A DNA stretch of 64,000 bases. Origin: Fontibacillus panacisegetis. Its GTDB lineage: Bacteria; Bacillota; Bacilli; Paenibacillales; Paenibacillaceae. This document shows, one piece after another, positions 652-31,711 of this stretch. The stretch is from NCBI RefSeq assembly GCF_900102215.1, contig NZ_FNBG01000026.1:1-64000 (forward strand), written 5' to 3'. How positions within the stretch are numbered: the first letter of the stretch is position 1; each line of letters starts with the position of its first letter. A model generated the notes under the pieces. The model was given only the letters and a program-made list of their open reading frames with translations, had not been told where the DNA came from and did no database searches. Made by a program: the position numbers and the translations under genes.

Positions 652-1626
652 ATGAATATTTCAGCTAGGAACCTACAGGCATCGCCAGAGGTCGTCACAT
701 TTGGCGAAAGCATGGCTCTGCTTATTGCCGAAGGTGGGAAAGGTTTAGAGTATGCCTCCAATCTGTCACCTTCATTTGGAGGAGCGGAGTCCAATGTGGC
801 AATCGGGCTTGCCCGCTTGGGGCACGCTTCTGGATGGTGCGGGAGACTGGGGGATGATCCTTTTGGACATCGCATCTTAAAAGCAATAAGGGGGGAAGGC
901 GTAGACACATCACGCGCCCGGCTTACGGATGAAGCACCTACCGGATTAATGATTCGTGAAAATGTTGCCGGGAGAAGCTCGGTACATTACTATCGCAAGC
1001 TGTCCGCAGCCAGCTTCATGCGTCCTGAGCATCTGGACGAAGCTTATATTGCCGGAGCCAAGATATTACATATTACCGGCATTACTCCAGCGCTTAGCCC
1101 GTCCTGCATCGAAACTGCTACTGCTGCGGTGGACATCGCCAAACGAAACGGAGTGAAGGTCAGCTTTGATCCCAATTTACGTCTGAAGCTATGGAGTGTG
1201 GAAGAGGCGCGCAAGGTACTTTTACCCTTAGCAATGAAAGCGGATTACTTCCTCCCAGGGCTTGATGAATTGAATCTGTTGTATGAAACGGATTCGATGG
1301 AGACTATTAAGGACAAGCTCCAGGAGCTTGATGCCGTGAGCATCTTAAAGGGCGGGGATAACTGCACTTATATTTTAGAAAACGGCAAGTTGACATCTGT
1401 ACCCTATTTCAAAGTCGAACAAGTGATTGATACCGTAGGAGCGGGTGACGGTTTTTGTGCTGGTTTTCTGGCTGGCCTGATCCGAGGCTACAGTATGGAG
1501 GAAGCGGTTCGCCTTGGCAATCTGATCGGCTCTCAGGTCATTCAAGCGGTAGGCGATTGGGAAGGTCTTCCCAACGCGGCTGAAATCGAACGATTGCTGG
1601 CTGGGAAAGGACATGTGGAGCGGTAA
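652..1626 (+). CDS. kdgK: 2-keto-3-deoxygluconate kinase (PfkB family)
   Basis: This 324-aa cytoplasmic sugar kinase would phosphorylate 2-keto-3-deoxygluconate (KDG) to KDPG, the step before KdgA. The N-terminal VTFGESMALL strand, the Gly-rich GGAESNVAIGLARLG segment and the C-terminal DTVGAGDGFCAGF motif, with the catalytic Asp of PfkB kinases, are all visible and the length is normal. The start is preceded by AAAAGGTGGAG. It faces kduD across a short intergenic hairpin. Assignment to KDG rather than fructose or ribose rests on the kduI, kduD and kdgA neighbours plus overall resemblance to KdgK; I infer this with good confidence. Confidence 0.88.
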   Translation: MNISARNLQASPEVVTFGESMALLIAEGGKGLEYASNLSPSFGGAESNVAIGLARLGHASGWCGRLGDDPFGHRILKAIRGEGVDTSRARLTDEAPTGLMIRENVAGRSSVHYYRKLSAASFMRPEHLDEAYIAGAKILHITGITPALSPSCIETATAAVDIAKRNGVKVSFDPNLRLKLWSVEEARKVLLPLAMKADYFLPGLDELNLLYETDSMETIKDKLQELDAVSILKGGDNCTYILENGKLTSVPYFKVEQVIDTVGAGDGFCAGFLAGLIRGYSMEEAVRLGNLIGSQVIQAVGDWEGLPNAAEIERLLAGKGHVER

Positions 1627-1773: not shown

Positions 1774-2526
1774 TTATCTCGCCATCCATCCTCCATCGAC
1801 ACAAAGAATATGGCCGTTCAGATAATCGGCCGCAGGGGATGCCAGAAAGGTCGCCGGACCTTTCACATCGTCAGGCGTACCCCAGCGCTCTGCAGGAATT
1901 CGATCCGTAATGGAGGCCGTCCGGTTCTCGTCAGCACGAATTGGCGCCGTATTGTCCGTTGCCATGTATCCAGGGGCAATGGCATTGATCTGGATACCGC
2001 TGCTTGCCCATTCGTTGGCGAACGCCTTGGTAAGCCCGGCTACACCATGCTTGCTGGCTGTGTAGCCCGGCACGTTGATTCCGCCTTGATAGGAAAGCAT
2101 AGAGCAGATGTTGATGATTTTGCCGCTGCCCCGTTCAAGCATATGTCGGCCGGTAATTTGCGTCAGCAAGAATACTGTGTTCAGGTTCAGGTTAATAACG
2201 TCGAACCAGTCTTTTTCACTGTGGTCCTTGGCTGGAGTTCGACGGATGATTCCTGCATTATTGACGAGGACATCTATGTGTCCCGTCAGCTTAAGCGCTT
2301 CGTCAAAGACGGATTGCAGCTTACTGTGGTCGCTCAGATCGACAACAATCTCCGCAGCCTTTTGGCCAAGTGCGGTGATTTTGCTCACTGTTTCTGCACT
2401 GCTCCCAAGCGAAGCGCTTACGACGTCCGCCCCCGCTTCAGCAAGCCCGACGGCGATGCCTTGACCAAGACCGCCAGCAGCCCCGGTGACCAAAGCCGTT
2501 TTTCCCTTCAAATCAAATAAATTCAT
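1774..2526 (-). CDS. kduD: 2-dehydro-3-deoxy-D-gluconate 5-dehydrogenase (SDR)
   Basis: A 250-aa short-chain dehydrogenase predicted to reduce 2,5-diketo-3-deoxygluconate (the KduI product) to KDG with NAD(P)H. Visible features are the Rossmann motif TGAAGGLGQGIAVGL near residue 15, the NNAG element near 90, the catalytic Ser region NICSMLSYQ and the YTASKHG Tyr/Lys pair near 155. The C-terminus CVDGGWMAR is typical of KduD. It is the last gene of a minus-strand group with kduI and a DeoR-type regulator. A long open frame on the opposite strand is only its shadow. Confidence 0.9.
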   Translation of the reverse strand: MNLFDLKGKTALVTGAAGGLGQGIAVGLAEAGADVVSASLGSSAETVSKITALGQKAAEIVVDLSDHSKLQSVFDEALKLTGHIDVLVNNAGIIRRTPAKDHSEKDWFDVINLNLNTVFLLTQITGRHMLERGSGKIINICSMLSYQGGINVPGYTASKHGVAGLTKAFANEWASSGIQINAIAPGYMATDNTAPIRADENRTASITDRIPAERWGTPDDVKGPATFLASPAADYLNGHILCVDGGWMAR

Positions 2527-2601: not shown

Positions 2602-3354
2602 TTAAACTTCAATGGTTACTCCTGTATGCTCATATTGCTTCGCCAAATCGGCGGATAGCCCGCTGTCGGTAATAATGCGAGTCAACTCGCTTAATGCAGC
2701 AAATGTACGCAGTGCTGTTTGATCAAATTTTTGATGGTTCATTACAGCGATGACTTCGCGGGCCGTTTCAATCAAAGCCCGTTTGAACCCGATCAGATCG
2801 CCGGTATATATTGATAACCCGTGTTCAGGATGGATGCCTGTTGCCGAGATAAACGCTTTTTGGATGTTGAGCTGCCGAACATAAGCAGCCGCCTCCGGGC
2901 CGGCAAGCATATTGCGAACCCGATAGCCGCCAGGGACAACGAGGCGAATTTGATCTTTTGCGGCGAGTTCGCTGATGATGTACACATCGTTGGTAATTAC
3001 GGTCAGCGATCTGTTTTCAAGCCTTCGGGCGATTTCCAGCGTTGTGCTTCCTCCGTCCAGCGCAATGATATCGCCTTCTTCAAGGTGAAGCAAGGCTTTG
3101 CGTGCGATTTCGGCTTTCTCCTCCGCATGCTTGGCCAAAGGCTCTCTGGACGGGAGTATTCCGAACTGGTCGCCTTGGGCCAGCACTGCTCCGCCATGCA
3201 CACGAACGAGCAGCCCCTGCTCCTCCAGCCGGGCGAGATCCTCTCGGATCGTTTTTCCGGTCACCCGCAGTTTTTCACTTAATTCTGCTACCGTCACTTC
3301 CTTGTTCGTCAGCAGAACCTCCATAATCTTCTCGTACCGCCGAATCTGGCTCAT
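2602..3354 (-). CDS. DeoR-family transcriptional repressor
   Basis: A 250-aa regulator with an N-terminal DeoR winged helix (residues 1-58, with the TGKTIREDLARLEEQG recognition region) and a C-terminal DeoRC sugar-phosphate sensor fold (residues 75-235, with DGGSTTLEIARRL and VVPGGYR). DeoR proteins normally repress nearby catabolic genes until a phosphorylated intermediate binds. Sitting between kduI and kduD, it probably senses a phosphorylated pathway intermediate such as KDPG. Direct repeats of GTTCA in the kduI upstream region are a candidate operator. The effector is inference. Confidence 0.85.
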   Translation of the reverse strand: MSQIRRYEKIMEVLLTNKEVTVAELSEKLRVTGKTIREDLARLEEQGLLVRVHGGAVLAQGDQFGILPSREPLAKHAEEKAEIARKALLHLEEGDIIALDGGSTTLEIARRLENRSLTVITNDVYIISELAAKDQIRLVVPGGYRVRNMLAGPEAAAYVRQLNIQKAFISATGIHPEHGLSIYTGDLIGFKRALIETAREVIAVMNHQKFDQTALRTFAALSELTRIITDSGLSADLAKQYEHTGVTIEV

Positions 3355-3386: not shown

Positions 3387-4220
3387 TTATTTTAAATCCT
3401 TTATTGCCACGGCGTCCATGTCTGCATAGGCTTTGTTGTCCCCGGCCATGCCCCAGATAAACGTATAATTGCTTGTGCCTACCCCACTGTGGATCGACCA
3501 ACTCGGAGAGATTACCGCCTGTTCATTGCGTATGACAATATGACGGGTTTCGTCGGGTTCCCCCATCAAGTGAAAAACAACTGCGTCCTCAGCAAGATCA
3601 AAATACATGTAGGCTTCCATTCGGCGAGGATGAACATGAGCAGGCATCGTATTCCACATGTTTCCGGTTTTTAGCTGAGTCATTCCCATCACCAACTGGG
3701 AGCTTTGAATACCGTTTTCATGGATGAAGCGGTGAATCGTCCGTTCGTTGGAATTCTCAATCGAGCCCAACGCGCCGGACTCTGCGTCGGCCAGCGTCGT
3801 TTTAGCCGTTGGGAACTCTTGATGTGCTGGGGCCGAATTCAAATAGAATTTAGCCGGTTTGGCAGCATCCTTACTTTTGAAAATGACCTCTCGTGAGCCT
3901 TTTCCTACATACAGGCAGTCCTTAGTATTCAGTTCATATTCGGTGCCATCAACAACGACCGATCCAGGCCCGCCTACATTGATAGCTCCAAGCTCACGCC
4001 GTTCCAGGAAAAAAGAAACTCCGAGCTCCTTAAGCTCCGTTTCCAGCTTGATCTCATCGTTAACCGGCGCTGCGCCTCCAATAATGAGGCGATCCTCATG
4101 AGTGAGCACCAGTTCCAGTTGATCCGGCGTAAACAGTGTAGGAATATGAAATTCCTTGCGCAGCCGCTGTGTGTCGAACTGCTTGACTTCATTCGGATGA
4201 GAGGCATAACGTCGTTCCAT
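3387..4220 (-). CDS. kduI: 5-dehydro-4-deoxy-D-glucuronate isomerase
   Basis: A 277-aa KduI protein, essentially the length of the E. coli enzyme. It isomerises 4-deoxy-5-keto-uronate, the spontaneous product of unsaturated uronate, to 2,5-diketo-3-deoxygluconate. The N-terminus MERRYASHPNEVK, the middle PAHVHPRRMEAYMYFDL with the metal-binding His and Glu, and HSGVGTSNYTFIWGMAGDN are characteristic of this cupin. I chose the ATG at 4220, which has GAGGAG about 11 nt upstream. A GTG 12 bp further out has no room for a ribosome site. It is the first gene of the minus-strand kduI-deoR-kduD group. Confidence 0.92.
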   Translation of the reverse strand: MERRYASHPNEVKQFDTQRLRKEFHIPTLFTPDQLELVLTHEDRLIIGGAAPVNDEIKLETELKELGVSFFLERRELGAINVGGPGSVVVDGTEYELNTKDCLYVGKGSREVIFKSKDAAKPAKFYLNSAPAHQEFPTAKTTLADAESGALGSIENSNERTIHRFIHENGIQSSQLVMGMTQLKTGNMWNTMPAHVHPRRMEAYMYFDLAEDAVVFHLMGEPDETRHIVIRNEQAVISPSWSIHSGVGTSNYTFIWGMAGDNKAYADMDAVAIKDLK

Positions 4221-4240
4221 TTCAAAAACCACTCCTCATT

Positions 4241-4299
4241 TGTTCATTTATGTGTATAATGTTCGTATAGGTTCACATTAATCCATTTAGGTTCATTTT
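4241..4299. promoter_or_regulatory. Phased GTTCA repeats, candidate DeoR operator
   Basis: In the divergent promoter between kduI and the 550-aa gene, four GTTC-based repeats occur in the same direction: GTTCATTTA at 4242, GTTCGTATA at 4261, GTTCACATT at 4271 and GTTCATTTT at 4291. They are spaced 19, 10 and 20 bp, so all lie on one face of the helix. DeoR-family repressors often bind such direct repeats. Linking them to the adjacent DeoR gene is inference. Confidence 0.5.
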
Positions 4300-4404
4300 G
4301 CAAGAGCTTTTCATAATGATCAACAAACGATCATGACAATAAGCTCCTTAACCATAGTGGAACGTTGGGCCGAAACAAGCATTGGAACGGAAAGGAGTTT
4401 TTTT

Positions 4405-6057
4405 ATGGATACTTATCGAAGCAGAATGCAGGAGATCGTACGGATTGTAGCGCGGAAGGCATGGGAACAGTCTGTTCTGTCCAGCGGCTTATGGTTTCAC
4501 GGGGATATTCGCGATAACTTTTATTACGCTTCGTATTTGTTCGCAGCATCCGTTGATCCTGCGGAAGATCCGTCGTTTGACCAATGGGAAGGCAAGCGAT
4601 TGGCCGAAAGGATGCTGCTTCAAGTGCTTCAGCTTCAGGATGCCCGAAAAGACAGTCCGATGTTCGGTCATTGGCCGCTTGGCCTGGAGCCGAAGCCGGA
4701 GCAGGCTTCGCCACATGTTCTGCCCGTGGAATTGATGGGCAGTCTGATGGTTTTTTTCCTTCAAACCTATGAACAGCATATGAGTAAGGGGCTCGCGGAG
4801 CTTTTTAATAGAGCGCTGGCAAATATATACCAGAGCGGGTTTTATCGTCAGCCGTTAAAAGATTACGGGCATCACGAAGCAAAATACACCGCTGCAAAGC
4901 TGATTTTCGGGCAACGCTTTCGAGACGATAAATTGTTGGCCGAAGGAAGAAGCAGCCTGAGGCAAACCTTGGAGCACATCCGTAGGGAGGGTATGGCAGA
5001 TTACGGCAGCTTGCCTTGGTTTTGGCACTGGATTCAGGCATTTACCTGTGCATGGACGCTCTCGGAGGAGCCGGCCGTGAAGTCCGAGCTTTCCGAAATG
5101 CTAGACCATTTGTGGAATGTCAGGGCTCTATATTATTTGAAGGGAGCTTGGATAGGAGCGCATTCCCGGGGAAGGCCGCATGATACACCCAAGGATGGAA
5201 ATGTGCTGCATGATTATGTACAGTTCGGCGATTTTGGGCTGCCGGAAGAGCTTCCCCGCACAGAATATGCAGGCTTCCTGTTTTATGAAGCTCCGAAGAA
5301 TGCCCGCAGCACGGCGCTGGAGCATATTCATACGGCAGAAATCAGCAGGGTGGTTATGAAGGAAGTTGATGGTGTAAAGCGGAAGCTGCATTCCTATGTT
5401 TATGTGACCAATCAGTTTGCCGCAGGCGGTTTATGGGAAAGGGTCAAGGAGTTTGATAACGAGCAGCTTCGCTGGTTGTTCAGCCTCCCGGTTCGTCGCA
5501 GCGGGAAAGGGAATCAGCTTTACTTTTTCCATCCCGGGGAGGGCTACAATTCAGCTCAAAGCGATCCGCGCCATCAAAGTGAATGGACGGCCGTACTTTA
5601 TCGAAAAAATGTGATCATGGCGCTGTATCCGCTTCCGGATGATGTCCCGGATGAAGTGGTTGGCGTGCTTCCGGAGGGAGAATGGACTTTTTCAGACCAT
5701 GCTATTTTCGGCAGGGTGGAAGAGACTTATTTTGCCGTTTATTTGACGAGTCCCTACGAGGTTCGGCAGCGAATCGGTTATTCTCTGGTGGAGTGCAAGG
5801 GACACCGGACTGGCGTAGTTGTGGAAGCGATCGGCTCTTTGGATGCAACACAGTGTGGAATGTCTAAGCTAGAAGATTTTGTGCATAAGATGTCTGCTTG
5901 GAAGCCTCGATTTTTTATGGATGACGAATTTCGAGTTGAATATATCTCATTTGCAGAAAAGGAGCTTTTAACCTTAAGTGTTAAAAACCCCGGCAATCCG
6001 GGAGAAGCCAAAGCAAACGGCGAATTAATTCATTATAGAAAAGAGGATAATCTATGA
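4405..6057 (+). CDS. Uncharacterised protein of the KDG operon, possible uronate-active enzyme
   Basis: I do not recognise the family of this 550-aa protein. The ATG at 4405 follows AAAGGAG and is preferred over upstream in-frame codons. No signal peptide or membrane segment is visible, so it should act in the cytoplasm. Residues 1-250 are mostly helical, rich in Trp and His (FHGDIRDNFYYASYL, YGHHEAKYTAAKL, LPWFWHWIQAF), like an alpha/alpha toroid. A conserved-looking middle follows (GAHSRGRPHDTPKDGNVLHD, about 253-272). Residues 300-550 look like beta-sandwich. Toroid plus beta-sandwich is the build of several polysaccharide lyases (heparinase II/III, PL8-like). It overlaps kdgA by 4 bp, so the two are translated together and it likely acts on the same pathway. 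Function is open. Confidence 0.6.
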   Translation: MDTYRSRMQEIVRIVARKAWEQSVLSSGLWFHGDIRDNFYYASYLFAASVDPAEDPSFDQWEGKRLAERMLLQVLQLQDARKDSPMFGHWPLGLEPKPEQASPHVLPVELMGSLMVFFLQTYEQHMSKGLAELFNRALANIYQSGFYRQPLKDYGHHEAKYTAAKLIFGQRFRDDKLLAEGRSSLRQTLEHIRREGMADYGSLPWFWHWIQAFTCAWTLSEEPAVKSELSEMLDHLWNVRALYYLKGAWIGAHSRGRPHDTPKDGNVLHDYVQFGDFGLPEELPRTEYAGFLFYEAPKNARSTALEHIHTAEISRVVMKEVDGVKRKLHSYVYVTNQFAAGGLWERVKEFDNEQLRWLFSLPVRRSGKGNQLYFFHPGEGYNSAQSDPRHQSEWTAVLYRKNVIMALYPLPDDVPDEVVGVLPEGEWTFSDHAIFGRVEETYFAVYLTSPYEVRQRIGYSLVECKGHRTGVVVEAIGSLDATQCGMSKLEDFVHKMSAWKPRFFMDDEFRVEYISFAEKELLTLSVKNPGNPGEAKANGELIHYRKEDNL

Positions 6058-6722
6058 AAAAGCTGCAATTAGTTCAAAAAATCGTCGAGGAAGGCGTCGT
6101 TGCCGTATTGCGTGGCGAAACGCCGGAAGAGGTTGTGGAAATGGCAGAGCAGGCTATTGCCGGCGGCATTAAAGTCATTGAAATAACGATGACGATTCCG
6201 TTCGCCCTTCAGGCCATCGAGCGATTGTCACGAAAATATTCATGGAATGCCAAGGATGAATCAAGCTATGCGATTATAGGCGTTGGGACGGTGCTTGACC
6301 CTGAGACGGCGCGGCAAGCTATTTTAAGCGGCGCCCAATTTGTCGTTGGGCCATCGCTGAATCGGGAAACAGTTCTGCTGTGCAACAGATACCGGATTCC
6401 GGTCATGCCGGGCTGCATGACGATCAAGGAAATCCAGGAAGCGCTGGAATTAGGGGCGGACATCGTAAAGCTGTTCCCAGGCAATCTGTACGATCCGTCG
6501 ATGATCAAGGCAGTGAAGGGGCCGCTTCCGCAGGCCAATATTATGCCGACCGGAGGGGTTTCACTGGCGAATTTGGGCGAATGGATCAAAGTAGGGGCGG
6601 CGGCTGTCGGTATCGGCTCGGATTTGACGAATGAGGCGGTAAAGCAAAGAGACTTCTCGTTGATCGCCAAAAAAGCAGCAGCATATAAGGAAGAGTATAT
6701 GAAGGCCAAAGGACTGGCATAA
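6054..6722 (+). CDS. kdgA: KDPG / 4-hydroxy-2-oxoglutarate aldolase
   Basis: A 222-aa class I aldolase that would split KDPG to pyruvate and glyceraldehyde 3-phosphate, finishing the uronate route. The Schiff-base Lys lies in DIVKLFPGNLYD near residue 140, the catalytic Glu in IKVIEITMT near 45, and the phosphate site in MPTGGVSLANLGEW. The ATG overlaps the stop of the preceding 550-aa gene (ATGA junction), which implies coupled translation. About 100 bp separate it from the GH31 gene, probably in the same transcript. Confidence 0.9.
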   Translation: MKKLQLVQKIVEEGVVAVLRGETPEEVVEMAEQAIAGGIKVIEITMTIPFALQAIERLSRKYSWNAKDESSYAIIGVGTVLDPETARQAILSGAQFVVGPSLNRETVLLCNRYRIPVMPGCMTIKEIQEALELGADIVKLFPGNLYDPSMIKAVKGPLPQANIMPTGGVSLANLGEWIKVGAAAVGIGSDLTNEAVKQRDFSLIAKKAAAYKEEYMKAKGLA

Positions 6723-12754: not shown

Positions 12755-14101
12755 ATGTTTAGAAAACCATGGATAAAACTATCTGCAATCGTATTGGCGG
12801 CATCCATAACACTTACCGCTTGCGGAGGAGGCAATTCCGGCGGGAATACTGTAGATAAATCCGCACCGGGCAACAATGGTGGTGCGGTTCAAGAGGAAAC
12901 GAAAAAAGAGGTCAGCTTTACGATCGGCTACGCCTCGGGCGATCCTGCCGGTAAAAAAGCAATTTCCGACGTCATTACGAAATTTATGGAAGAAAACCCG
13001 AATATAAAAATCAAGGATTTGAGCGAAACGACTTCTTCAGCGTACCTGGATTGGCTGAAAACGAAGGATGCGGTAGGCGAGTTTCCGGATCTTGTAGAAA
13101 TGCGGGATACTGAATTGTTTGCCAATGCGGGAAAAATCGTAGAACTGCCAACTGATTTGCGGGACTTGTTTAGTACGCTTCCTGAAGTGGATGGCAAGGT
13201 CTATAACGCTCCTCTCACAATGACTTCTCCTTGGGGAATCATTTATAGCAAGAAAGCTTATGAAGAGGCAGGAGTTACGGAGCTTCCTAAAAACTGGGAC
13301 GAATTTATCGCGATTCAGGAAAAGCTGAAAGGCAACGGAATTTCACCGCTCGTAGTCGGAGGCAAAGATATTTTTCATATGGGTTTCTGGGTCAACAAGT
13401 TCCTCATCGATCAGATTTACGTGAAGGATCCGGATTGGAACTCCAAGCGCACAGCAAAAGAAGTCAGCTTCACCGATCCTAATGTGGTTCAGGCTGTCAC
13501 TGATTATAAAGAATTGTTCCAAAATTATGTCGATAAGGGCTGGCTGAGCACCGGCGATAATCAAACAGCCTCCTTCCTAGTTACCGGAAAAGCAGCTCAA
13601 CTCTATTCAGGGCCATGGATGTTCACGCAAATCGCGGAAGCTGATCCAAACTTTGAATTCGGTTTCTACGCAGTCCCTGACCGGGAAGGTAAAGTGAACG
13701 TTGTCGGGTTGCCTACTGCAGGTGGATGGTCCCTCTCGACAGAAGCTTCCAAGGATCAAGATAAGACGGAAGCGATCAAGGAATTCATCCGCTACTTCTA
13801 CAAGGCGGAAAACTATACGAAATATTTGGAGACGACAAACGGCATTCCTTCAACCAAGGAAAACATTAAATATAATGCAACCGAACAAATGCAAACAGTA
13901 CTTGACATTATGGCCGATGCAAATGTGACCAAATCGCTGGCGATCAATAACTGGTGGGGCAAAAACCTGATTCCTCCACAATTCCGCAACTGGTATTACA
14001 AGCAGTTGCAGGAGCTAGTTGTAAAAGATGGAGACGTGCTTGAGTATATGAAACAGGCGGATAAGGAGTATGACAATCAAGTTAAAGCCAACTCAATGTA
14101 A
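12755..14101 (+). CDS. ABC importer solute-binding lipoprotein (family 1)
   Basis: A 448-aa extracellular sugar-binding protein. The N-terminus has a lipoprotein signal with lipobox LTAC (Cys about 23) followed by a Gly/Asn-rich linker. The body (VSFTIGYASGDPAGKKAISDVITKF and onward) is a family-1 carbohydrate-binding fold. It precedes two permease genes on the same strand, and the YesMN pair is just upstream. The ligand is presumably an oligosaccharide released by the surface lyase. The gene is well preceded by GGGAGG. Confidence 0.88.
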   Translation: MFRKPWIKLSAIVLAASITLTACGGGNSGGNTVDKSAPGNNGGAVQEETKKEVSFTIGYASGDPAGKKAISDVITKFMEENPNIKIKDLSETTSSAYLDWLKTKDAVGEFPDLVEMRDTELFANAGKIVELPTDLRDLFSTLPEVDGKVYNAPLTMTSPWGIIYSKKAYEEAGVTELPKNWDEFIAIQEKLKGNGISPLVVGGKDIFHMGFWVNKFLIDQIYVKDPDWNSKRTAKEVSFTDPNVVQAVTDYKELFQNYVDKGWLSTGDNQTASFLVTGKAAQLYSGPWMFTQIAEADPNFEFGFYAVPDREGKVNVVGLPTAGGWSLSTEASKDQDKTEAIKEFIRYFYKAENYTKYLETTNGIPSTKENIKYNATEQMQTVLDIMADANVTKSLAINNWWGKNLIPPQFRNWYYKQLQELVVKDGDVLEYMKQADKEYDNQVKANSM

Positions 14102-14173
14102 CTAATCACCACCAGAAGGGGGCCTCTGACTTGCCGGGGTCCCCTTCTGATGAAAGAAGGAGTGAGAGAAACC

Positions 14174-15100
14174 ATGACTACGCCTGCAACGCTTATCAAT
14201 AATCCTCAAACTTCCACAAAAAAGAGAAGAAAATGGCAATCCTATGCGCTATTCTTTATTCTGCCGGCATTTATTTTATATACACTTTTTGTAATCGTTC
14301 CAACGGTCGGCAGTATATATTATAGTTTTACGTCATGGGACGGAATTAGTCCTGACATACGCTTTATCGGTCTTGCCAATTTCGTGGAGATTTGGAACAG
14401 CCCGCGGGTTCATAATGCTTTAAAAAACACTATGATTATGACAATTAGCCTCGTACTGCTTGAAAACGTGGTTGCGATTTTGCTGGCGCTGCTTGTGGAT
14501 AAAGTGCGTTGGCTGAGTAAATTGTTTAGAAGCATTTTCTATTTCCCTACGTTGCTCAGCGGTATCGTAATGGGTTTTGTATGGGCCATGCTGCTGAATT
14601 ACAACTTCGGGGTAATTAATCAGATGTTGAATAAAATCGGCCTAGGCGCACTTGCCGTAGATTGGTTGGGCGATCCGAGGTATGCCATGTTGGCGATCGT
14701 ATTGTCTACTGTATGGAAAGGCGCTGGCTATTACATGATCATATATCTCGCCGGATTGCAGGGCATTCCCCAGGAATTGAACGAAGCAGCCAGCATCGAC
14801 GGGGCGAACGGCTGGCAACAGTTCCGGCATATCACGTTCCCGTTGCTCGCCGGATCGGTCACCGTCTGCATGGTTTTGGCGATGATCGGTGCTCTTAAAA
14901 TATTTGACCAAATCGCGGTAATGACGGATGGTGGTCCCGGCTTTGAAACCGAAACGTTGACCTATTTGATTTACAAGGTTGGGTTCGGTGAATTAAGGCA
15001 AGGCTTCGGTACGGCGTTGGCTATCGTGCTGTTCCTGATCATCATGATCATTACCGTCATTCAGGTGAAGTTCCTCCAGAAGAGGGAGGTTGAGCTGTAA
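14174..15100 (+). CDS. Sugar ABC importer permease 1 (MalF/UgpA type)
   Basis: A 308-aa inner-membrane permease with about six membrane segments, beginning YALFFILPAFILYTLFVIV. The EAA-loop contact site for the ATPase is visible as ELNEAASIDGANGWQQFRHITFP. I chose the ATG at 14174 behind AAGGAGTGAG rather than an upstream ATG that lacks a ribosome site. Its stop overlaps the next start by one base. No ATPase gene is present nearby, so a shared MsmX-type ATPase elsewhere is expected. Confidence 0.88.
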   Translation: MTTPATLINNPQTSTKKRRKWQSYALFFILPAFILYTLFVIVPTVGSIYYSFTSWDGISPDIRFIGLANFVEIWNSPRVHNALKNTMIMTISLVLLENVVAILLALLVDKVRWLSKLFRSIFYFPTLLSGIVMGFVWAMLLNYNFGVINQMLNKIGLGALAVDWLGDPRYAMLAIVLSTVWKGAGYYMIIYLAGLQGIPQELNEAASIDGANGWQQFRHITFPLLAGSVTVCMVLAMIGALKIFDQIAVMTDGGPGFETETLTYLIYKVGFGELRQGFGTALAIVLFLIIMIITVIQVKFLQKREVEL

Positions 15101-15936
15101 TGAAACTGAAAACACGCGGACTTGCAGTAAATATTCTGATATTTACGCTCACTCTTCTGATTGCAGTCCTGTTCTTTTTTCCCATCTTCTTCAATATCAT
15201 GTCTGCCTTTAAGAGCAACGCGGAAATTATGAGGGATGCCTTGTCTTTACCGACAACGTTGTATCTCGAGAGCTTCAAGTATCTGCTGACTGAAACGAAC
15301 TTTCCAAATGCGATCCAAAACAGTCTGATTTTGACGGTGGTGTCCATCGTGTTCCAGGTTCTTCTCATCCCGATGGCAGGTTATGCCATTCAACGGAGAA
15401 ATGCAAGATGGACGAGATTTATTTTTCTATATTTTCTCGCAGGGATGATGATTCCTTTTCAAGCTTATATGATTCCACTGTTTAAAGAACTGAAAATGCT
15501 TGGATTATACGGAAGCCTAGCGGGGCCAATCATGATTTATGTCGCTGGTGCGGTCGGTTTCGGCTGCTTGCTCTATTCGAGCTTTGTCAAAGGCATACCG
15601 GTTGAAATCGAGGAGGCGGCTGAAATCGACGGCTGCTCCAGAGTGAGAATTTTCTGGAACATCGTGTTTCCGCTTTTGGGACCGGTTACGGCCAGTATGG
15701 TCGTGTTGAACGGACTCGGAATCTGGAACGACTTCCTGATGCCGATGCTGGTTCTACCCTCCGGCGAGCCTAAAACCATGGTCGTGGAAATTTACCGGTA
15801 TATCGGAGAATTCTCATCTCGTTGGGATATGATTTTCGCTGGCACGACGATGTCTGTCGTCCCGATTCTGATCATATTCGTCTTTCTGCAAAAATATTTT
15901 GTCAAAGGGATTGCAACGGGGGCGACGAAGGGCTGA
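15100..15936 (+). CDS. Sugar ABC importer permease 2 (MalG/UgpE type)
   Basis: A 278-aa partner permease with six predicted membrane segments and the EAA loop EIEEAAEIDGCSRVRIFWNIVFP. It starts on the TAATG junction with permease 1, so translation is coupled. The C-terminus FVKGIATGATKG is typical of the MalG type. A terminator follows about 105 bp downstream at 16041. Confidence 0.88.
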   Translation: MKLKTRGLAVNILIFTLTLLIAVLFFFPIFFNIMSAFKSNAEIMRDALSLPTTLYLESFKYLLTETNFPNAIQNSLILTVVSIVFQVLLIPMAGYAIQRRNARWTRFIFLYFLAGMMIPFQAYMIPLFKELKMLGLYGSLAGPIMIYVAGAVGFGCLLYSSFVKGIPVEIEEAAEIDGCSRVRIFWNIVFPLLGPVTASMVVLNGLGIWNDFLMPMLVLPSGEPKTMVVEIYRYIGEFSSRWDMIFAGTTMSVVPILIIFVFLQKYFVKGIATGATKG

Positions 15937-19730: not shown

Positions 19731-22700
19731 ATGGATCAATATGTAGTTTCAAGAAACGGACGCTGGCTTCGTCAATGGATGTCAGTGTTCCTTTCTACGG
19801 TCATGCTCTTGTCATATTTGCCTGTTACTGTGACAGCAGCAACATCCCCCTCGGATGGAACAGTGGATTATTCTTCGCTGGTCGTTTATCCGGGTACAAC
19901 GGTAAGTGCTGCCAATCTGGCCAATTTGAACGACGACAATCCAAGTACACATGCTGGCGACTTTAGACCTGATACCGGAAAGTCTTTCACATTAGATTTT
20001 GGAGAGGACTTTGGAGTGAAGGTAACGGAAGTACGAATGCAGGCCAGAAGTGGTTTTACCGATCGGCTATACAACGGGCGAGTGCAGGCCTCTGTGGACG
20101 GGATCGTGTGGACAGAAATCACTTCTTCTATGGCTAAAAGCAGTTCAGATATACAGACATTATCCATAAAAGCAGAACATCAAAATATCCCGTACCGGTA
20201 TTTGAAAATCATGGGGGACGGAAATAGTAATATTTTCAATATCGGTGAAATGAGAATTCATGGGACAAGAGTTCAACTTGAAAGTCTGATTAGTGGGGTG
20301 TCCATTAAATCCGATAATGTGGATTCCACGAAGGCTGCTGCTGGTGATGCTGTAACTTTGTCTTTTAAATCAACTGCTCCGATATCAAATGTAACAGTCA
20401 GTGTAAATGGAAATTCCTATGTAGCGCATAGCGTAGATCAGATCAACTGGTCTGCTGGCTATACCATTAGTCCATATGAGTTCCCGGGGCCAGTCTCGTT
20501 TGCTATCAATTATACGGATGAAGACGGAAGCTACGGGAAGTCGGTAACTAAGACAACTGATGAAAGCGTTGTCACGATTCAGGAGCTTTCCGATTATATC
20601 GATGTTCTATCCAAAACTGAAGCATTCGGTATCCCTGCACCGGATGTTTCCAATAACAATACAGTATATGTTGATTACAGCACGAGCAATGGAAAAACCT
20701 TTGCTGGCAGTATAATGGATAAAAATCCAAGCACCTATTTAAGCTGGAACGGACCATGGAATAATGGTTCCGGTACGTTTCTGGTATTTGACATGGGAGA
20801 AGGCAATGGCATTGCACTAGATCGGGCCTACATATTAGCCAGAGCCGATCAGTTTGGACGATTAGGCGGTACCTACCTGCAAGGGTCTATTGACGGAACA
20901 ACTTGGACAACGATAAGCACCAGTGCACAGGGCATTGCCGATTGGCAAACACTCTCCATTACCGACAAAACATCATACCGTTATCTAAAAATTACGAACG
21001 ACTCCAGATGGTATTTGAATATGGCAGAGATTAAGTTCTACGGAAAGCAAAGACTAGATGGTGTTCTGTACTCATATGACTTACAGAATCAAATGGCCAT
21101 AGCCCAGGATATTGTCAATGGAGGACAAGGATACAATTCCGATACAAGCTGGAAAGCTTTGGAGCAAGCACTGGCTCACGGGCAAACAGCTATCGACAAA
21201 CTGGATAGCGGCAATATCAGCGACCTTACTCAAGCTGACATAGATGTGTTGACATCTGATTTGCGGGCCGCTATTAGCGGATTAAAGCAAGAGGTTAAAA
21301 TTATTAGTGTGACCAGTGATGAAGGGTTTATCCATCCCGGTATTAGTGTAACTAAAGAGTTATTGGAAAATTTGAGATCGCAAATTGAAAACAAGCAGGA
21401 ACCTTGGTACAGCTATTATACAGCCATGCTGGAAACAGATTATGCGAAAACTGCCTTTACATCGAGCATTTCTCCAGATGGAATCACGGTAAGAACGGAT
21501 GCCTATAACGCGAGTAATGTGAAGGACATGGCATCGAAAGATGGAACACGGGCATTTACGCAGTCGATTTTATACTACATTACTGGAAATGAAACCTATC
21601 GTTCAAATGCTCTGCGTATTATTCGGCTCTGGGGACAGATGGACCCGAATAAATACCGGTACTTTACAGATTCTCATATCCATACTGGACCCCCCTTGTA
21701 CAATATGATTATGGCAGCGGAGATTCTACGGTATACCACTTCTTCAGAAGAGTTGAGATGGACCGATCAGGATACGGAGACGTTTACCAAGAATGTCATA
21801 GACCCGACGGTAAAGACTTTTTTGGATTTTAACGACAAGTTTATGAATCAACACAATTATCCGCTGTACGGATCGATCGCTGCTTATATTTTTAAGAATG
21901 ATTCGGATAATTATGCTAAAGCGATAGAATGGTTAACCGTAAACGATTCTGCGCCGGACAAGTATATGACGGGATCTATCTATTGGCTGTTTCGAGAAAT
22001 GACACAGAATGATGAAACAGGTGAACCTGTCGCACCCCATGTGCAGCATGTTGAAATGGGGCGGGATTTGGCACATGGCGAAGGAGACGTTACGAACTTT
22101 ATTAATCTCGCCAGAATGGTGGATGCACAAGGGACCAAGGTTGATCCAGCGAGCGGAACCATTAGTGCGACGGGTGTATCCATCTATGAATTTTTGAATG
22201 ACAGGATTTTAATGGGAGCCGACTACTATGCTAAGTTCTCGGAAGGCTTCGATATCAATTGGACTCCCGTAATTTCGACAGCTGCATCGGAATGGGCAAA
22301 GGAAAAAATTTATTCTATACCTTCGGATGAATATAAAGGCCGGATGCACTATTTGGGCACGGGCGGCTGGGATTTGTACTATGTGTACCGCTATAAGCTG
22401 GGTTATACGGAAGAACAGCTGGAAGCGAAAGCTCCATACTTTGTAAAAGCATTCAAGAGCCGGGTTGCACCGAATCACTATTTTACTGGCGATGGATCGG
22501 ATAATGATGCACCTAGAGTGGAGACCGGGGCTGAGTGGTGGATTTACGTCCCGAAGGAAGTTGCTAATGAACAGCCTGATTCTATATCTAGAGCAGTAAG
22601 GGAAAACACCTTATTTAAAGACAGATACCTGCTGCAACTAGAGGATGCCTATAGTATTATTGATGGTTCTAACCAGATAAAGGAAAGTACATCGAATATT

Positions 22701-25700
22701 AGCACGAAGACGGAAGGTGACGTCAGCTATATCAGTACAATAGCTAGCGACAACCAGACCTTGTTTGCTGCTTATCGGCTAATGTTTATTAATCGAAACA
22801 ATACTTCGAATGTGGCTATAAAAATTCGCACTAATGGATTAGCTAAGCTTGAATTAAAGAAAGATAAAGATTCGGTGCCGTTCCAAACACTTGAATTGCC
22901 TGACACCAACAATCAATGGCAATATGTAACCTTTGACATGGGGCAAAACTCAGTTTCATATGGTCAATTCCCATCGAAGACTTTTATGGCTTACTTTAAT
23001 GTTGTCGGAAATGGAACAAATGTTGATATCGATTATATGGATATTAAAGCTGACAATACGCTGACGCCACCCTCTTTCAGGAATATCACGACTAAAAATA
23101 TGAATTTGTCATTGTTTGCAGGTGGCACGATTAATTACGATTTTTCTGCTGTTGATACAAATAGCTCGGACGTTATCACATATCATCTGCAGGGAGATGC
23201 ACTGCATGGAGCGACTCTTGATCCTGCTACTGGAGCATTTTCTTGGACGCCAACCTCTCAGGAGAAGGGTTCCTATCAGTGCCTCGTAGTAGCTTCCGAT
23301 GGAATCACAGTTTCAACAGTGAGCCTTACGATCCATGTTGCGGGTGATCGTCAGGCAGCCATAGAATATGTGGGATCTCATTTTGACACGAACACTATGT
23401 ATGAATCGGAATCATTGGAAAAATATGAAGATGTCTATAACAAGGTTCTCGGCATGGTGAATACCGCATCGGATAGCGAATTTTACTCTGCATTGAATGA
23501 GTTATCCCTAGTTGTAGCTTCTATGAAGCAGTTGAATCCGAGATTAAGCGATGGAAGCTTGGATTTTACAAAGAGTTCAATTAAATCGTCATTGCAGTCC
23601 GGATATGAAGCCTATTTGATTGATAACAATACGGTTACCTTCAGCGGCGATTTGACAGCTAAATATTTCATTATGGATTTTGGCCCTAACTTTAGAGTTG
23701 CGCCTGCACATTTTGCACTGCAACCGCGTAATATTTGGCCAGAAAGAATGTCAGGAGCAATTGTTTACGGCTCGGATGACGGAGATACATGGGTACCACT
23801 AACAGAAGAAGCTGGATACAGCAGTCAAATGCAGACGTTGAATGTAAAGCAGGAACAGTTTGGTGAAGCCTATCGATATTTCAAGATTTCAACCTATGAA
23901 TCCAAAGATTATTATGCAAAGAAAAACAGCATTCTTAGTGTAGGCGAGTTCCGAATCTACGGAGATCGCATTGAAACCCCTACTAGAATTTCCAGCGTGT
24001 CGATTAGCAGTAATGCTGAATCATTAACTCAGCACATGCAGGGGAGCGGTGCAAGCAGCAACGCGCAAGTCCCTGTTAAGAAAGCTATCGCTGGCAATGA
24101 GCTCACTTTGAGCATTACGGCTAAGCAACCTCTCACGGAGTTGAAGGCAACAATTGCTGGAATGGACGCCACGGTAACGAAGCTTGACGACTTGCATTAT
24201 ATGGCAACAGTAACTCTCAGTCCGGAGGCAGCTAGGTGGAATGCGAGCAGAAATGCGGAAATCGAGGTCAATTATAAGTATCTCGATGCAAAAAAAAATC
24301 AGATTGAAACTTCAGGATTACCTGTGGTTTATACGACGGATGGATCTGTTGTGCTAGTGTCGGACGTTTCCAGTAGAATTGATAATATTCTAGATAAAGC
24401 AACGCTGACTTTTAATAGATCGACAGATGTCGGGACTGAAATCGGACCGCGGTTATTCGACCGTAACACATCAACTTTTGTAGATATTAGAAATTCGTCA
24501 AGCGCTGGTAACGGCGTGTTCTATCTTTTCGATTTTGGGGATGGTGCTGTGTCGCTCAGCAGTGTGGAAATTGCTCCAAGGATGACTACCAATCTGGCAA
24601 GCCGAATGATCGGCACTTATGTGGCAGGCTCCAACGATGGAGTAACGTATAAGCCGATTTCATCCGAGTCCAAAAATATTTGGGATTGGCAAGGGCTGTC
24701 GGTTACGGATAGTACTTATTATCGCTATATCAAGGTTACCAATAATAGCTCTTGGTTCGGGAATCTTTCAGAATTGGAGTTCTTCGGTTCCTATGCAGAA
24801 GATAGATCAAGCCTTATCGTTCCGCCGGTCGTGCAATCGGCTGTGCCGGGGGACGGCAAAGTGACCTTGACCTGGAATGAAGTACCCGGAGCAGTCAGTT
24901 ACAACGTATATGCTAGTACTATTTCGGGTTCTTTTGACAATCCTGTGCAGACTGTAGCTGGAGATGTGCTCAGTTATGATGTAACCGAACTTGCTAACGG
25001 CACGACCTATTATTTTGCGATATCTGCGACTACGTCCAGTGGAAGCAGCGGACTATCGGCGGAGGTCAGTGCGGTACCAGGAGTGGACGAGAGTCTTAAT
25101 TTGTCCAGCTTATGGCTGAGCGAAGGTGATATGGTCCCTGCGTTTGATCCGAATGTGATCGCCTACAACGTCAACGTGACTAATGCAGTATATAGCGTCA
25201 GCGTTACAGCATCGGTGTACGACCTAACATCAACGCTCAAGATCAACGGCATTGATATGGTGAGCGGAAGTCCATTTCCTGTCTTGCTGGAAGTAGGAGT
25301 CAATCCAATAACCGTCGAGGTAAACGGACTGACGGGAAGCAAGACTTACCAGATTACTGTGGTTCGCGAGAAATCGAACAGCGGTACCAAGTCATCTAAT
25401 GCCGACCTATCCGGGCTGGTACTAAGTTCTGGATCCTTGTTACCGGCCTTCAGTTCTGACGTTACCGAATATAGTGCAACCGTGGGATACAGGATAAGCA
25501 GCGTGAGCATCTTAGCAACGCTGTACGATGGTTTGGCATCGCTAAAGGTGAACGGAGCGACAGCAGCAGGTAATAGTTCCATATTGGTGCCGTTGCAAGT
25601 GGGTGTAAACCAGATCAAGCTCGAGGTCACGGCTGAAGACGGCACTGTCAAAGTGTATACCCTCAATGTTACGAGGGAGAATGACTCTGTTCCTACTTCT

Positions 25701-27463: not shown

Positions 27464-28618
27464 TTGTTAAGAGATATGGAAAAAGAGTGGTTGGATGGTG
27501 TTATCGCTAAGGTGACGAAAAAGATGGATATAGTCAGCGAGCGTTCTCGCAACAAAATTCCATACACGACCATTAATGGCATGCATGACGACAAGTCCGT
27601 GGACAATCCTTCCGCTGATGTGGCTGATGGCATCAACTGGTGGACTAACGGCTTCTGGGGGGGCATGCTATGGCTCATGTTTCATGAAACCGGCAATGAA
27701 AAATACAAGGAAATTGCGCAAATTTCTGAAGTCAAGCTGGACAGAAGTTTTGATGAATTTTACGGCCTGCATCATGATGTCGGGTTTATGTGGCTCCCTA
27801 CCAGTGTTGCGAATTACAAGCTAACCGGGAACCAGGAATCACGTAAGCGTGCTTTGCATGCCGCAAACCTGCTGGCGGGCCGGTTTAATTTGGCGGGGGG
27901 CTTTATCCGTGCATGGAACGATTTGGAAGAGGGGGATACGAGAGGCTGGGCAATCATCGACTGTATGCTCAACATCCCACTACTTTATTGGGCTTCGGAA
28001 GAAACCGGGGATCCGCGCTTTAAGCAAATCGCGATGCGGCACGCAGATACGTCTATGTCTGCATTCGTTCGCCCTGACGGCTCCGTTAACCATATCGTCG
28101 AATTTGATCCTTTTAACGGAGGGGTGATTCGTACACATGGCGGACAGGGTTACGGTGAAGGCTCCTCCTGGACGCGAGGACAGACTTGGGCGCTCTACGG
28201 ATTTATGATGAGTTATATTCATACTGGAAAGGATGAGTATTTGCAGACGGCTAAGCGGGTTGCGCATTATTTTATGGCCAATATTCCGGAGAACGGTATT
28301 ATTCCGGTCGATTTCAGACAGCCGGAGGAGCCTGGATTAATGGATGATACGGCAGCTGCCATCGCAGCATGCGGGCTTATAGAAATTGCCAAGGCTATCG
28401 GTGGGTATGAAAGCCGCTCGTTTTTAACGGCAGCGCTGAAGCTGCTGAGAACGCTGGATGAATCGCGAATCGATTGGTCGCCGGATACCGATCACTTCCT
28501 GCTTTATGGCACAGGAGCCTACCACAGCAAAACGCATCACCATGCAATTATTTATGGCGATTATTATTTTATGGAAGCGTTATTCAAGCTGAAGGGCAAC
28601 GATCTGTTTTTGTGGTAG
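27464..28618 (+). CDS. GH88 unsaturated uronyl hydrolase
   Basis: A 384-aa (alpha/alpha)6 enzyme that removes the 4,5-unsaturated uronic acid from lyase products by hydrating the double bond. It resembles the Bacillus sp. GL1 unsaturated glucuronyl hydrolase. The two conserved catalytic Asp residues are visible as HHDVGFMW (Asp105) and IIDCMLNIPL (Asp166), plus TRGQTWALYGF. There is no signal peptide. The TTG at 27464 follows GGTAGGG; an ATG at 27476 is the alternative. It is followed closely by GH43 and GH28-like genes in one likely operon and feeds unsaturated uronate to KduI. Confidence 0.9.
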   Translation: MLRDMEKEWLDGVIAKVTKKMDIVSERSRNKIPYTTINGMHDDKSVDNPSADVADGINWWTNGFWGGMLWLMFHETGNEKYKEIAQISEVKLDRSFDEFYGLHHDVGFMWLPTSVANYKLTGNQESRKRALHAANLLAGRFNLAGGFIRAWNDLEEGDTRGWAIIDCMLNIPLLYWASEETGDPRFKQIAMRHADTSMSAFVRPDGSVNHIVEFDPFNGGVIRTHGGQGYGEGSSWTRGQTWALYGFMMSYIHTGKDEYLQTAKRVAHYFMANIPENGIIPVDFRQPEEPGLMDDTAAAIAACGLIEIAKAIGGYESRSFLTAALKLLRTLDESRIDWSPDTDHFLLYGTGAYHSKTHHHAIIYGDYYFMEALFKLKGNDLFLW

Positions 28619-30277: not shown

Positions 30278-31711
30278 ATGGATTCACTGATCATTTACGA
30301 AGCGCCTAAGAGTGCTGTAGGGAATAACGATTTCGCGGTTTATGTGCGTAAGCGCGGAATGGTCTGGCAGGAATTGTTTGTCTATGAAGCGAAAGTGGAC
30401 ATGCATAACGTCAGGCGTGCATCCATGGCTTATTTTGATATGGATGGAGAAATCGAAGTAAGGATCGAGAGCAGATTGCAGTCTATTAACCGAGTAGTCA
30501 TACGGCCTTTATCTTATGATCTGAATTTTTTTCATGACGAACGAACCATTTCGTTTACTTTAAATCAGCCTCGAAAATTGTCTATTGAAATCAACGATGA
30601 CCGGTTCTCAAACCTTCATCTGTTCGCCAATCCACGAGAGGAAGAAGCGCCATCGCCTGAGGACGATCAGGTTCTGTGTATTCATCCTGGAATTCATCGA
30701 ACCGAAGATATTCTCGACTTGCTGGAATTACGAAGCGGCAATGTAGAGCATAAGACGCTGTATTTTGCACCGGGAATGCATTATCTCGAAGAAATGATTT
30801 TACGTGTTCCTTCCAATACAACAGTGTATATCGACGGCGGGGCTATCGTGGTTGGCTCTATAGTCTGCGACCGTGTGCATGATGTGGTCATTCGGGGCAG
30901 AGGAATTCTGTATCTCTCGGATTTCCATCGTTTTTCTGCATTTAGGGGAGTACGAATTATATTTTGCCGAAACATTAGTGTGGAAGGTATTATTACGCTC
31001 GACCCGCCGCATTACAGTATCTATCTTGGTAAATCCGAGCATGTGCGCATACGAAATTTCAAATCCTTCAGTACTCGAGGGTGGTCGGACGGTATTGATA
31101 TTATGGCTTGTACAGACATTGAGATAGAGGATGTATTTCTGCGCACATCGGACGATTGCATCGCCGTGTACGGCTCAAGGTGGGATTATCGTGGAGATTC
31201 CAGTCATATTCGCGTGCGCAATGCGGTGCTGTGGGCAGACGTTGCCCATCCGCTAATGATGGGAACTCATGGCGATCATAGTGGGGACGGCGATAATATT
31301 TTTGATGTGCGGTTTGAAAACATAGATATTCTTGAACATCATGAGCCGCAAGTCAATTATATGGGAGCCATAGCGATCAATGCTGGAGATAAAAATACGA
31401 TCCGTGATATCTCGTATAAAAATATCAGGGTTGAAGACTTTGAACTGGGACGGCTGCTTGATATCAGAGTGATGCGGAACAAGGATTATAACCCGGCTCC
31501 AGGAAATCGGATCGAAAATATCTCCTTCGAAAACGTTCAGTATCAGGGGACGTGCTCCAATCCAAGCCACATTTTTGGTTACGACGCCAAGAGAACGGTA
31601 TCCAATGTACACTTTTCCGGGCTCTACATCAATAACCGGCTTATCCTGCAACCCGAGAAAGGTGTAGTGGAATTAAACGAATTTGCAAGCGAAATTTCTT
31701 TTGCGACTTGA
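30278..31711 (+). CDS. GH28-like right-handed beta-helix protein
   Basis: A 477-aa cytoplasmic protein. Residues 1-125 form a beta-rich N-terminal domain I cannot name. From about 150 onward there are parallel beta-helix coils (TVYIDGGAIVVGSIVCDRVHDV, GIDIMACTDIEIEDVFLRTSDDCIAV). The DGID, SDDC and later GTHGDHSGDG motifs correspond loosely to the NTD, DD and GHG sites of polygalacturonases. GH28 members include polygalacturonases, rhamnogalacturonases and exo-enzymes on related sugars. Lack of a signal peptide and operon position after GH88 and GH43 favour an exo-acting enzyme on imported fragments. A terminator follows. Confidence 0.75.
   Translation: MDSLIIYEAPKSAVGNNDFAVYVRKRGMVWQELFVYEAKVDMHNVRRASMAYFDMDGEIEVRIESRLQSINRVVIRPLSYDLNFFHDERTISFTLNQPRKLSIEINDDRFSNLHLFANPREEEAPSPEDDQVLCIHPGIHRTEDILDLLELRSGNVEHKTLYFAPGMHYLEEMILRVPSNTTVYIDGGAIVVGSIVCDRVHDVVIRGRGILYLSDFHRFSAFRGVRIIFCRNISVEGIITLDPPHYSIYLGKSEHVRIRNFKSFSTRGWSDGIDIMACTDIEIEDVFLRTSDDCIAVYGSRWDYRGDSSHIRVRNAVLWADVAHPLMMGTHGDHSGDGDNIFDVRFENIDILEHHEPQVNYMGAIAINAGDKNTIRDISYKNIRVEDFELGRLLDIRVMRNKDYNPAPGNRIENISFENVQYQGTCSNPSHIFGYDAKRTVSNVHFSGLYINNRLILQPEKGVVELNEFASEISFAT

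Follow-up and report, generated by a model that had tools for sequence, protein, structure and literature searches.

The window analysed here is the 64,000-nucleotide stretch at positions 1 to 64,000 of contig NZ_FNBG01000026.1 of Fontibacillus panacisegetis, and the subject of this account is a gene near its left end that encodes a 550-aa protein, P0001, next to genes of the KduI pathway of uronate catabolism. P0001 has the predicted fold of the toroid/sandwich lyases, yet by its catalytic-Tyr column it is no standard member of them; it is best read as a Paenibacillus-centred protein belonging to an undescribed lyase-fold superfamily. The gene and its conserved codons are as follows:

4405..6057, + strand: open reading frame of P0001 (550 aa), with a toroid predicted at about aa 3-306 and a beta-sandwich at about aa 311-540
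4870..4875, + strand: codons of His156-His157, an invariant pair starting toroid helix 156-171 and aligned with the lyase Asn neutraliser
5017..5028, + strand: codons of Trp205-Phe-Trp-His208; Trp205 and His208 are each present in 50/50 clade members, and Trp205 falls in the lyase Tyr column
5425..5475, + strand: codons of aa 341-357 (GGLWERVKEFDNEQLRW), a conserved loop early in the beta-domain

An AAAGGAG ribosome site lies 7 nt 5′ of the ATG at 4405, and because it sits before this codon, a longer start at the in-frame ATG at 4333 (+24 aa) was rejected. A start codon aligns with 4405 in many relatives; their starts were picked with a preference for that position, so they are no independent vote. 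At the 3′ end the stop codon and the kdgA start overlap as ATGA (6054-6057), the 4-bp overlap noted in an earlier sequence-only reading, and stops crowd the single reverse frame inspected across the gene. The same reading had seen no signal peptide, in agreement with an N-terminus that is not hydrophobic (top 12-residue Kyte-Doolittle mean, 0.76). By this measure the maxima of the P0001, GH31, GH2, GH88, GH43, and GH28 proteins span 0.03-0.78, none having a hydrophobic N-terminus, and the binding protein (2.31) and S-layer protein (2.06) of the window do have one; the best 12-residue means of 60 P0001 family members span 0.06-1.70. The measure is crude, since a cytosolic kinase scores 1.80 and family members up to 1.70, but as far as sequence tells, a cytoplasmic location for P0001 holds.

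No Pfam, NCBIfam, or PHROG match was obtained for P0001 at E ≤ 1, and the best E against PDB sequences was only 1.2, so that the protein is, as the sequence-only reading had it, of no named family in these libraries. PF14583 (the PL22 domain) and PF07470 (the GH88/GH105 domain) were both unmatched, and neither PF07940 nor any other lyase domain was found in P0001 (Pfam, E ≤ 1) or in the relatives scanned. A 30-member profile recruited 7on7 (E 0.0012) and 8pjx (E 0.016) from the PDB, both of which we take to be designed propellers; these were rejected as noise, no stretch passing alone. P0001 was unmatched in plasmid and phage records, and a viral fold library returned four matches at E ≤ 1e-3, to insect-virus and unnamed proteins, one of them ODV-E66. 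Within the same taxonomic family, 78 of 197 genomes match P0001, 72 of them strongly, which places the gene beyond chance; matches of any strength occur in 112 of 198 genomes of the order, and phylum-wide in 4 of 398, one weakly. The 33 related loci come from Paenibacillus, Fontibacillus, Cohnella, and one other member of the Paenibacillaceae, plus two metagenome-assembled genomes labelled Bacillus sp. In P. oralis, mere fragments of the gene lie between kduI and kdgA (L063:7953-8687). Among the literature matches listed, judged by title and start of abstract and with subscription papers and CAZy outside the scope, no description of the P0001 family was recognised.

The proposed check by structure prediction and Foldseek was run, and the combination of alpha/alpha toroid and beta-sandwich suspected from sequence was recovered. 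The AlphaFold2 model (pLDDT 90.1, pTM 0.90) consists of a helical toroid and a beta-sandwich, and toroid/sandwich uronate lyases account for all 16 whole-chain Foldseek matches in the PDB at E ≤ 1e-3; for the beta-domain alone in VIA, 29 lyase entries rank ahead of any other fold. As modelled, P0001 has the N-terminal alpha/alpha toroid followed by an antiparallel beta-sandwich that defines this fold; it is predicted to fold like the toroid/beta-sandwich polysaccharide lyases (PL8/12/15/17/21/33/35/39/40) and may share descent with them. The two-domain arrangement appears common to P0001 and PL12 heparinase III, PL33 BtPL33HA, PL8, PL15, PL17, and PL39, at only ∼5-12% identity to lyases of these families, and Y291 of PL33, as given in the available text on that family, corresponds to a Trp in P0001. 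The PL35 GAGases (8khw, 8khv) have no sequence match to P0001. Sequence kinship was likewise undetected with PF07940 heparinase-type proteins (hhalign probability 1.6 against a 29-protein set) and with DUF2264 (PF10022; no Pfam match, and hhalign probability 0.3 against a thin profile, Neff 1.5).

To compare active sites, 82 sequences were aligned, namely 50 members of the P0001 clade and 32 distant relatives (groups of 23, 3, and 6), leaving out duplicates, members of ≤500 aa or <39% identity, and one short relative; residue columns were placed by sequence alignment, not structural superposition. The neutraliser column holds His156 in 50/50 clade members (the His-His pair also in 50/50) and Asn in 23/23, 3/3, and 4/6 of the distant relatives, and the counterpart of His157 in the third distant group is the His of its Asn-His pair. 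The Glu199 column and Arg255 are common to nearly all 82 sequences, with Asp at 199 in P0001 itself and Glu in the other 49 members. All 50 clade members share His208, Trp207, Trp209, D260, D264, and D270, a conservation that for the most part does not extend to the distant groups, and in the beta-domain loop E345, E349, N352, E353, Q354, R356, and W357 are invariant in 30 rows and in 50/50 members.

In the available text of one study, the key residues of PL33 are N238, Y291, and H444, a Tyr orthologue is used by PL12, PL15, PL17, PL21, and PL39, and the bases of PL15 (H311) and PL21 (H202) stand ∼54-55 residues ahead of the Tyr (PMC11848413). A comparison table elsewhere gives Arg314 as the PL15 neutraliser (excerpt of PMC12088678); with the His bases of PL15 and PL21, it follows that Asn is not universal among lyases. 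The epimerase DS-epi1 has His205 and Tyr261 (PMC8006597, in its available part). Judged by spacing to the Tyr in these partial texts, PL15, PL21, and DS-epi1 provide precedents for a His near the Asn place, and a Trp in place of the catalytic Tyr is without precedent in the available parts of the lyase papers cited. Such excerpts also describe PL35 GAGase II with Asn192, Tyr246, His401, and a Mn site of His403, Asp405, Asp421, and His457 (PMC12088678), where P0001 has His156, Trp205, and no HxHxD, and PL40 ulvan lyase Uly1040 (9vtk) with Asn245/Trp246, Tyr305, His485, and Mn (PMC12915356), the Tyr again being replaced in P0001.

The genes and sites around the P0001 gene are as follows:

652..1626, + strand: PfkB-family kinase, probable KdgK (PF00294, 4e-57; NCBIfam KDG kinase models under cut-off)
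1774..2526, - strand: kduD (TIGR01832, 379.9 bits, cut-off 338.85)
2602..3354, - strand: DeoR-family regulator (PF00455, PF08220)
3387..4232, - strand: kduI, divergent from the P0001 gene (NF002091, 452.3 bits, cut-off 250)
4242..4295: probable DeoR operator, with GTTC(A/G) half-sites at 4242, 4261, 4271, and 4291 (spacing 19, 10, 20)
6054..6722, + strand: kdgA, KDPG/KHG aldolase, in ATGA overlap with the P0001 gene (PF01081, 9.4e-41; NF005119, 279.8 bits, cut-off 238)
12755-15936: predicted ABC importer, a lipoprotein-like binding protein and two permeases, from a reading of the sequence with no library scan
27464..28618, + strand: GH88 unsaturated glucuronyl hydrolase, the other pathway entry (PF07470; E 8.9e-73 to 1vd5)
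30278..31711, + strand: GH28 without a hydrophobic N-terminus, distant kin of exo-polygalacturonosidase 3jur (E 3.1e-7)

To the extent that sequence shows it, the unsaturated-uronate setting described in the sequence-only reading is borne out, with probable KdgK, KduD, DeoR, KduI, and KdgA around the gene and GH88 in the window. Downstream of the P0001 gene, along with kdgA, lies a GH31 gene, and past the importer the order is GH2, a 2404-aa S-layer-anchored protein, GH88, GH43, and GH28. The S-layer-anchored protein (19731-26945) has F5/8C, cadherin-like, and fn3/CBM6-like parts with no catalytic domain recognised, and its position suggests that it handles polymer outside the cell. The GH88, ∼21 kb from the P0001 gene, matches solved unsaturated glucuronyl hydrolases, and must be the source of the single PF07470 match in this genome; PL22 was not found there. 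The cytoplasmic route into the KduI pathway is attributed to GH88/GH105 and PL22. The latter, oligogalacturonate lyase, is a cytoplasmic beta-propeller that feeds KduI, which on this general background is the pathway slot proposed for P0001, a protein without PF14583. GH88 and GH105 are toroids whose product enters KduI, and GH105 has no sandwich; P0001 shares the toroid but has an added beta-sandwich and no PF07470.

Linkage was counted over 33 loci, taking 8 kb around the gene (some loci end early at contig ends) and tblastn matches of ≥50% coverage, with identities of ≥38% for KdgK/KduD, ≥45% for DeoR, and ≥30% for ABC proteins. The neighbours found were DeoR (21 loci), KduI (17), KduD (16), the first ABC permease (12), KdgA (11), KdgK (7), GH28 (4), GH88/GH105 (2), and DUF2264 (2), and at least one of KdgK, KduD, KduI, and KdgA was present in 19. 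In L055, kdgA, a PfkB kinase, kduI, kduD, and a P0001-type gene form a single run, followed by an IclR regulator. The coupling to kdgA stressed in the sequence-only reading stands in the window but, at 11 of 33 loci, is not a general link. Genome-wide, KduI scored above cut-off in 72/72 genomes with a strong P0001 match versus 102/125 others (Fisher p 1.5e-5, uncorrected for relatedness), and of the 67 genomes for which both positions were listed, 32 had kduI ≤5 kb from the gene, five further genomes being unlisted. A pathway role for P0001 in uronate catabolism is highly probable.

Two further sets of genes were seen near P0001 relatives. Just upstream of the gene in L043 (4783-7831) and L056 (4894-7953) are a DUF2264 gene and a GH88/GH105-type hydrolase gene, in reversed order between the loci, those of L056 being assigned from their homology with L043; DUF2264 might act in the same pathway as well. 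L053 (3805-5670) and L056 (2962-4797) each encode, close to the gene and to ABC permeases, a protein of ∼610-620 aa without a Pfam or NCBIfam match.

Between kduI and the P0001 gene, a dedicated DeoR operator is probable from its repeats. GTTCA/TGAAC words number 55 in 17 kduI-gene intergenic regions versus a mean of 6.7 and a maximum of 15 in single-base shuffles, the 17 sequences being related to each other. The doubled site occurs exactly once in the genome (4261-4280), six more matches needing 1-2 mismatches, and its reversed control pattern has two matches. A shorter operator pattern with two mismatches matched three times in the window versus 3.04 in shuffles, which is chance, and only 4261 was exact. 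In L044, L050, and L062, further GTTCA-type sites, read by eye, apparently lie closer to the gene itself, beyond the kduI sites.

The distant relatives, unnamed proteins of A2 and bridging loci, are homologous to P0001: a profile of 27 homologues of 483-664 aa aligned to the P0001 profile over 320 columns (hhalign probability 99.2, E 8e-20). The A2 set holds one third-group sequence and the 27-homologue profile three, so both are mixed. The wider superfamily, of ∼550-850 aa, is represented by the A2 loci (L064-L075, L108-L118, L122) and L171-L177, with motifs of the YTNI and E-[YF]-N-S-P-x-Y types corresponding to the Asn and Tyr of the lyases, and occurs in the order to which the window belongs and in a few further families within the phylum (11/398 genomes, including P0001). 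A third divergent group (L119:5437-7197, L120:5408-7162, L121:4579-6339) has the Asn-His pair, a GGAHGRIY motif, and ABC permeases nearby; its L119 protein has no Pfam or NCBIfam match. None of 13 distant relatives scanned had a Pfam match over cut-off, and against PDB sequences the A2 profile and L174 gave none, and L119 and L176 only noise. In 28 distant-relative loci, no query-type match to KduI, KduD, KdgA, or KdgK was found at the thresholds used. Unlike P0001, these relatives keep the Tyr and mostly the Asn; apart from the absence of HxHxD, they look more like conventional lyases and may be lyases.

For substrate, product, residue roles, and catalysis itself, we infer a scheme in which P0001 would take short uronic-acid-containing oligosaccharides, probably imported by the ABC system and trimmed by cytoplasmic glycosidases, and release a 4,5-unsaturated or 4-deoxy-5-keto uronate unit that KduI, KduD, KdgK, and KdgA would carry to pyruvate and glyceraldehyde-3-phosphate. 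The active site would be expected in the inter-domain cleft. The likeliest chemistry would be elimination or a near relative involving removal of the uronate C5 proton, in which the carboxylate might be neutralised, or the proton accepted, by His156/His157, much as a His at about that place works in PL15 and PL21, and the acid might come from His208, one helical turn past Trp205. That P0001 is a cytoplasmic uronide-processing enzyme feeding KduI, most likely by elimination, is our leading but tentative reading, held at somewhat less than even confidence. More doubtful, and still a possibility worth stating, is the specific proposal that the clade replaced Tyr by Trp and Asn by His to acquire a new cytoplasmic uronide reaction devoted to the KduI pathway and controlled by a DeoR operator of its own; the reaction would be either His-based elimination or hydrolysis by a protein with a lyase scaffold.

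Several results weigh against an enzyme of this kind. In the fold comparisons, the lowest of the 29 lyase entries in VIA tie with GH92; the beta-domain alone gave no Foldseek match at E ≤ 1e-3, and its top-ranked entries were a mixture of GH81, GH63, and lyases; and matches of the toroid by itself reached nearly the same level for epimerases, GH8, GH76, and GH105. The catalytic-Tyr column holds Trp205 in 50/50 clade members and Tyr in 23/23, 3/3, and 6/6 of the distant relatives, so that the Tyr expected ∼50-57 residues past the neutraliser is lacking from the clade; among 29 heparinase-type proteins used as controls, the spacing was 53-54 in 19 and 99 in three, with no motif pair found in seven. 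An HxHxD motif past residue 250 was found in 0/50 members and 0/32 distant relatives versus 28/29 of these controls, a set made up of the largest open reading frame per PF07940 locus, which may include a wrong one. With Trp205 in the Tyr column, His156 in the Asn column in 50/50, and HxHxD missing, the claim that P0001 is a lyase is weaker than the reading of its fold and pathway. As to linkage, KdgK, KduD, KduI, and KdgA were all unmatched nearby in 14 of 33 loci at the thresholds used, and kduI lay >5 kb from the gene in 35 of the 67 genomes. P0001 shows no anticorrelation with PL22, being present in 6 of 17 PL22 genomes, and was therefore rejected as a general PL22 replacement; because PF07470 is carried by 72/72 strong-match genomes, P0001 is not the sole source of KduI-pathway product, and it was rejected as a general GH88/GH105 replacement too.

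Among other explanations, P0001 might be a hydrolase, opening unsaturated uronides by vinyl ether hydration as GH88/GH105 do, or saturated uronosyl bonds via its clade-only Asp/Glu residues. This seems rather unlikely: lyases lead both the whole-chain and the beta-domain matches, GH105 lacks the sandwich, and a GH88 is already present in the window and PF07470 in 72/72 genomes, with a PF07470 gene directly upstream in L043 and a homologue of it close upstream in L056. The prospect of an isomerase, epimerase, or ring-opening enzyme, acting on free unsaturated uronate or oligomers and cutting no bond, is slim, since DKI isomerisation already belongs to KduI and, by spacing, Tyr261 of DS-epi1 is the very Tyr that is Trp in P0001 (PMC8006597, available part). 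Slimmer still is that of an ordinary lyase from a known CAZy family; the libraries searched had no CAZy/dbCAN models and the fold matches several PL families, but no credible PDB sequence relative emerged even with profiles, the Tyr is replaced, and the relatives scanned match no lyase Pfam model. A catalytically dead uronide-binding or regulatory partner of the DeoR regulator, which the lost Tyr and the frequency of DeoR (the commonest labelled pathway neighbour, at 21/33, and near the gene in L046-L049 and L051, where KduI, KduD, KdgA, and KdgK were unmatched at the thresholds used) would favour, is very unlikely given many polar residues invariant in 50/50, unlike a decaying enzyme, and the kdgA overlap in the window.

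P0001 is thus the product of a conserved gene, unnamed in the libraries used and tied to the KduI pathway, with the predicted fold of a lyase clan whose members, in the available parts of the papers cited, all use a Tyr that it does not have. If P0001 is a lyase, it must manage without that Tyr; otherwise the scaffold serves another function. Because the key Tyr is swapped, the chemistry is worth testing. If Tyr and Asn were indeed replaced in favour of a new reaction, P0001 would define a CAZyme family of its own, built around a novel active site. Beyond its own clade, P0001 directs attention to a larger superfamily, likewise unannotated, in which the Tyr is retained, as is the Asn in most members.
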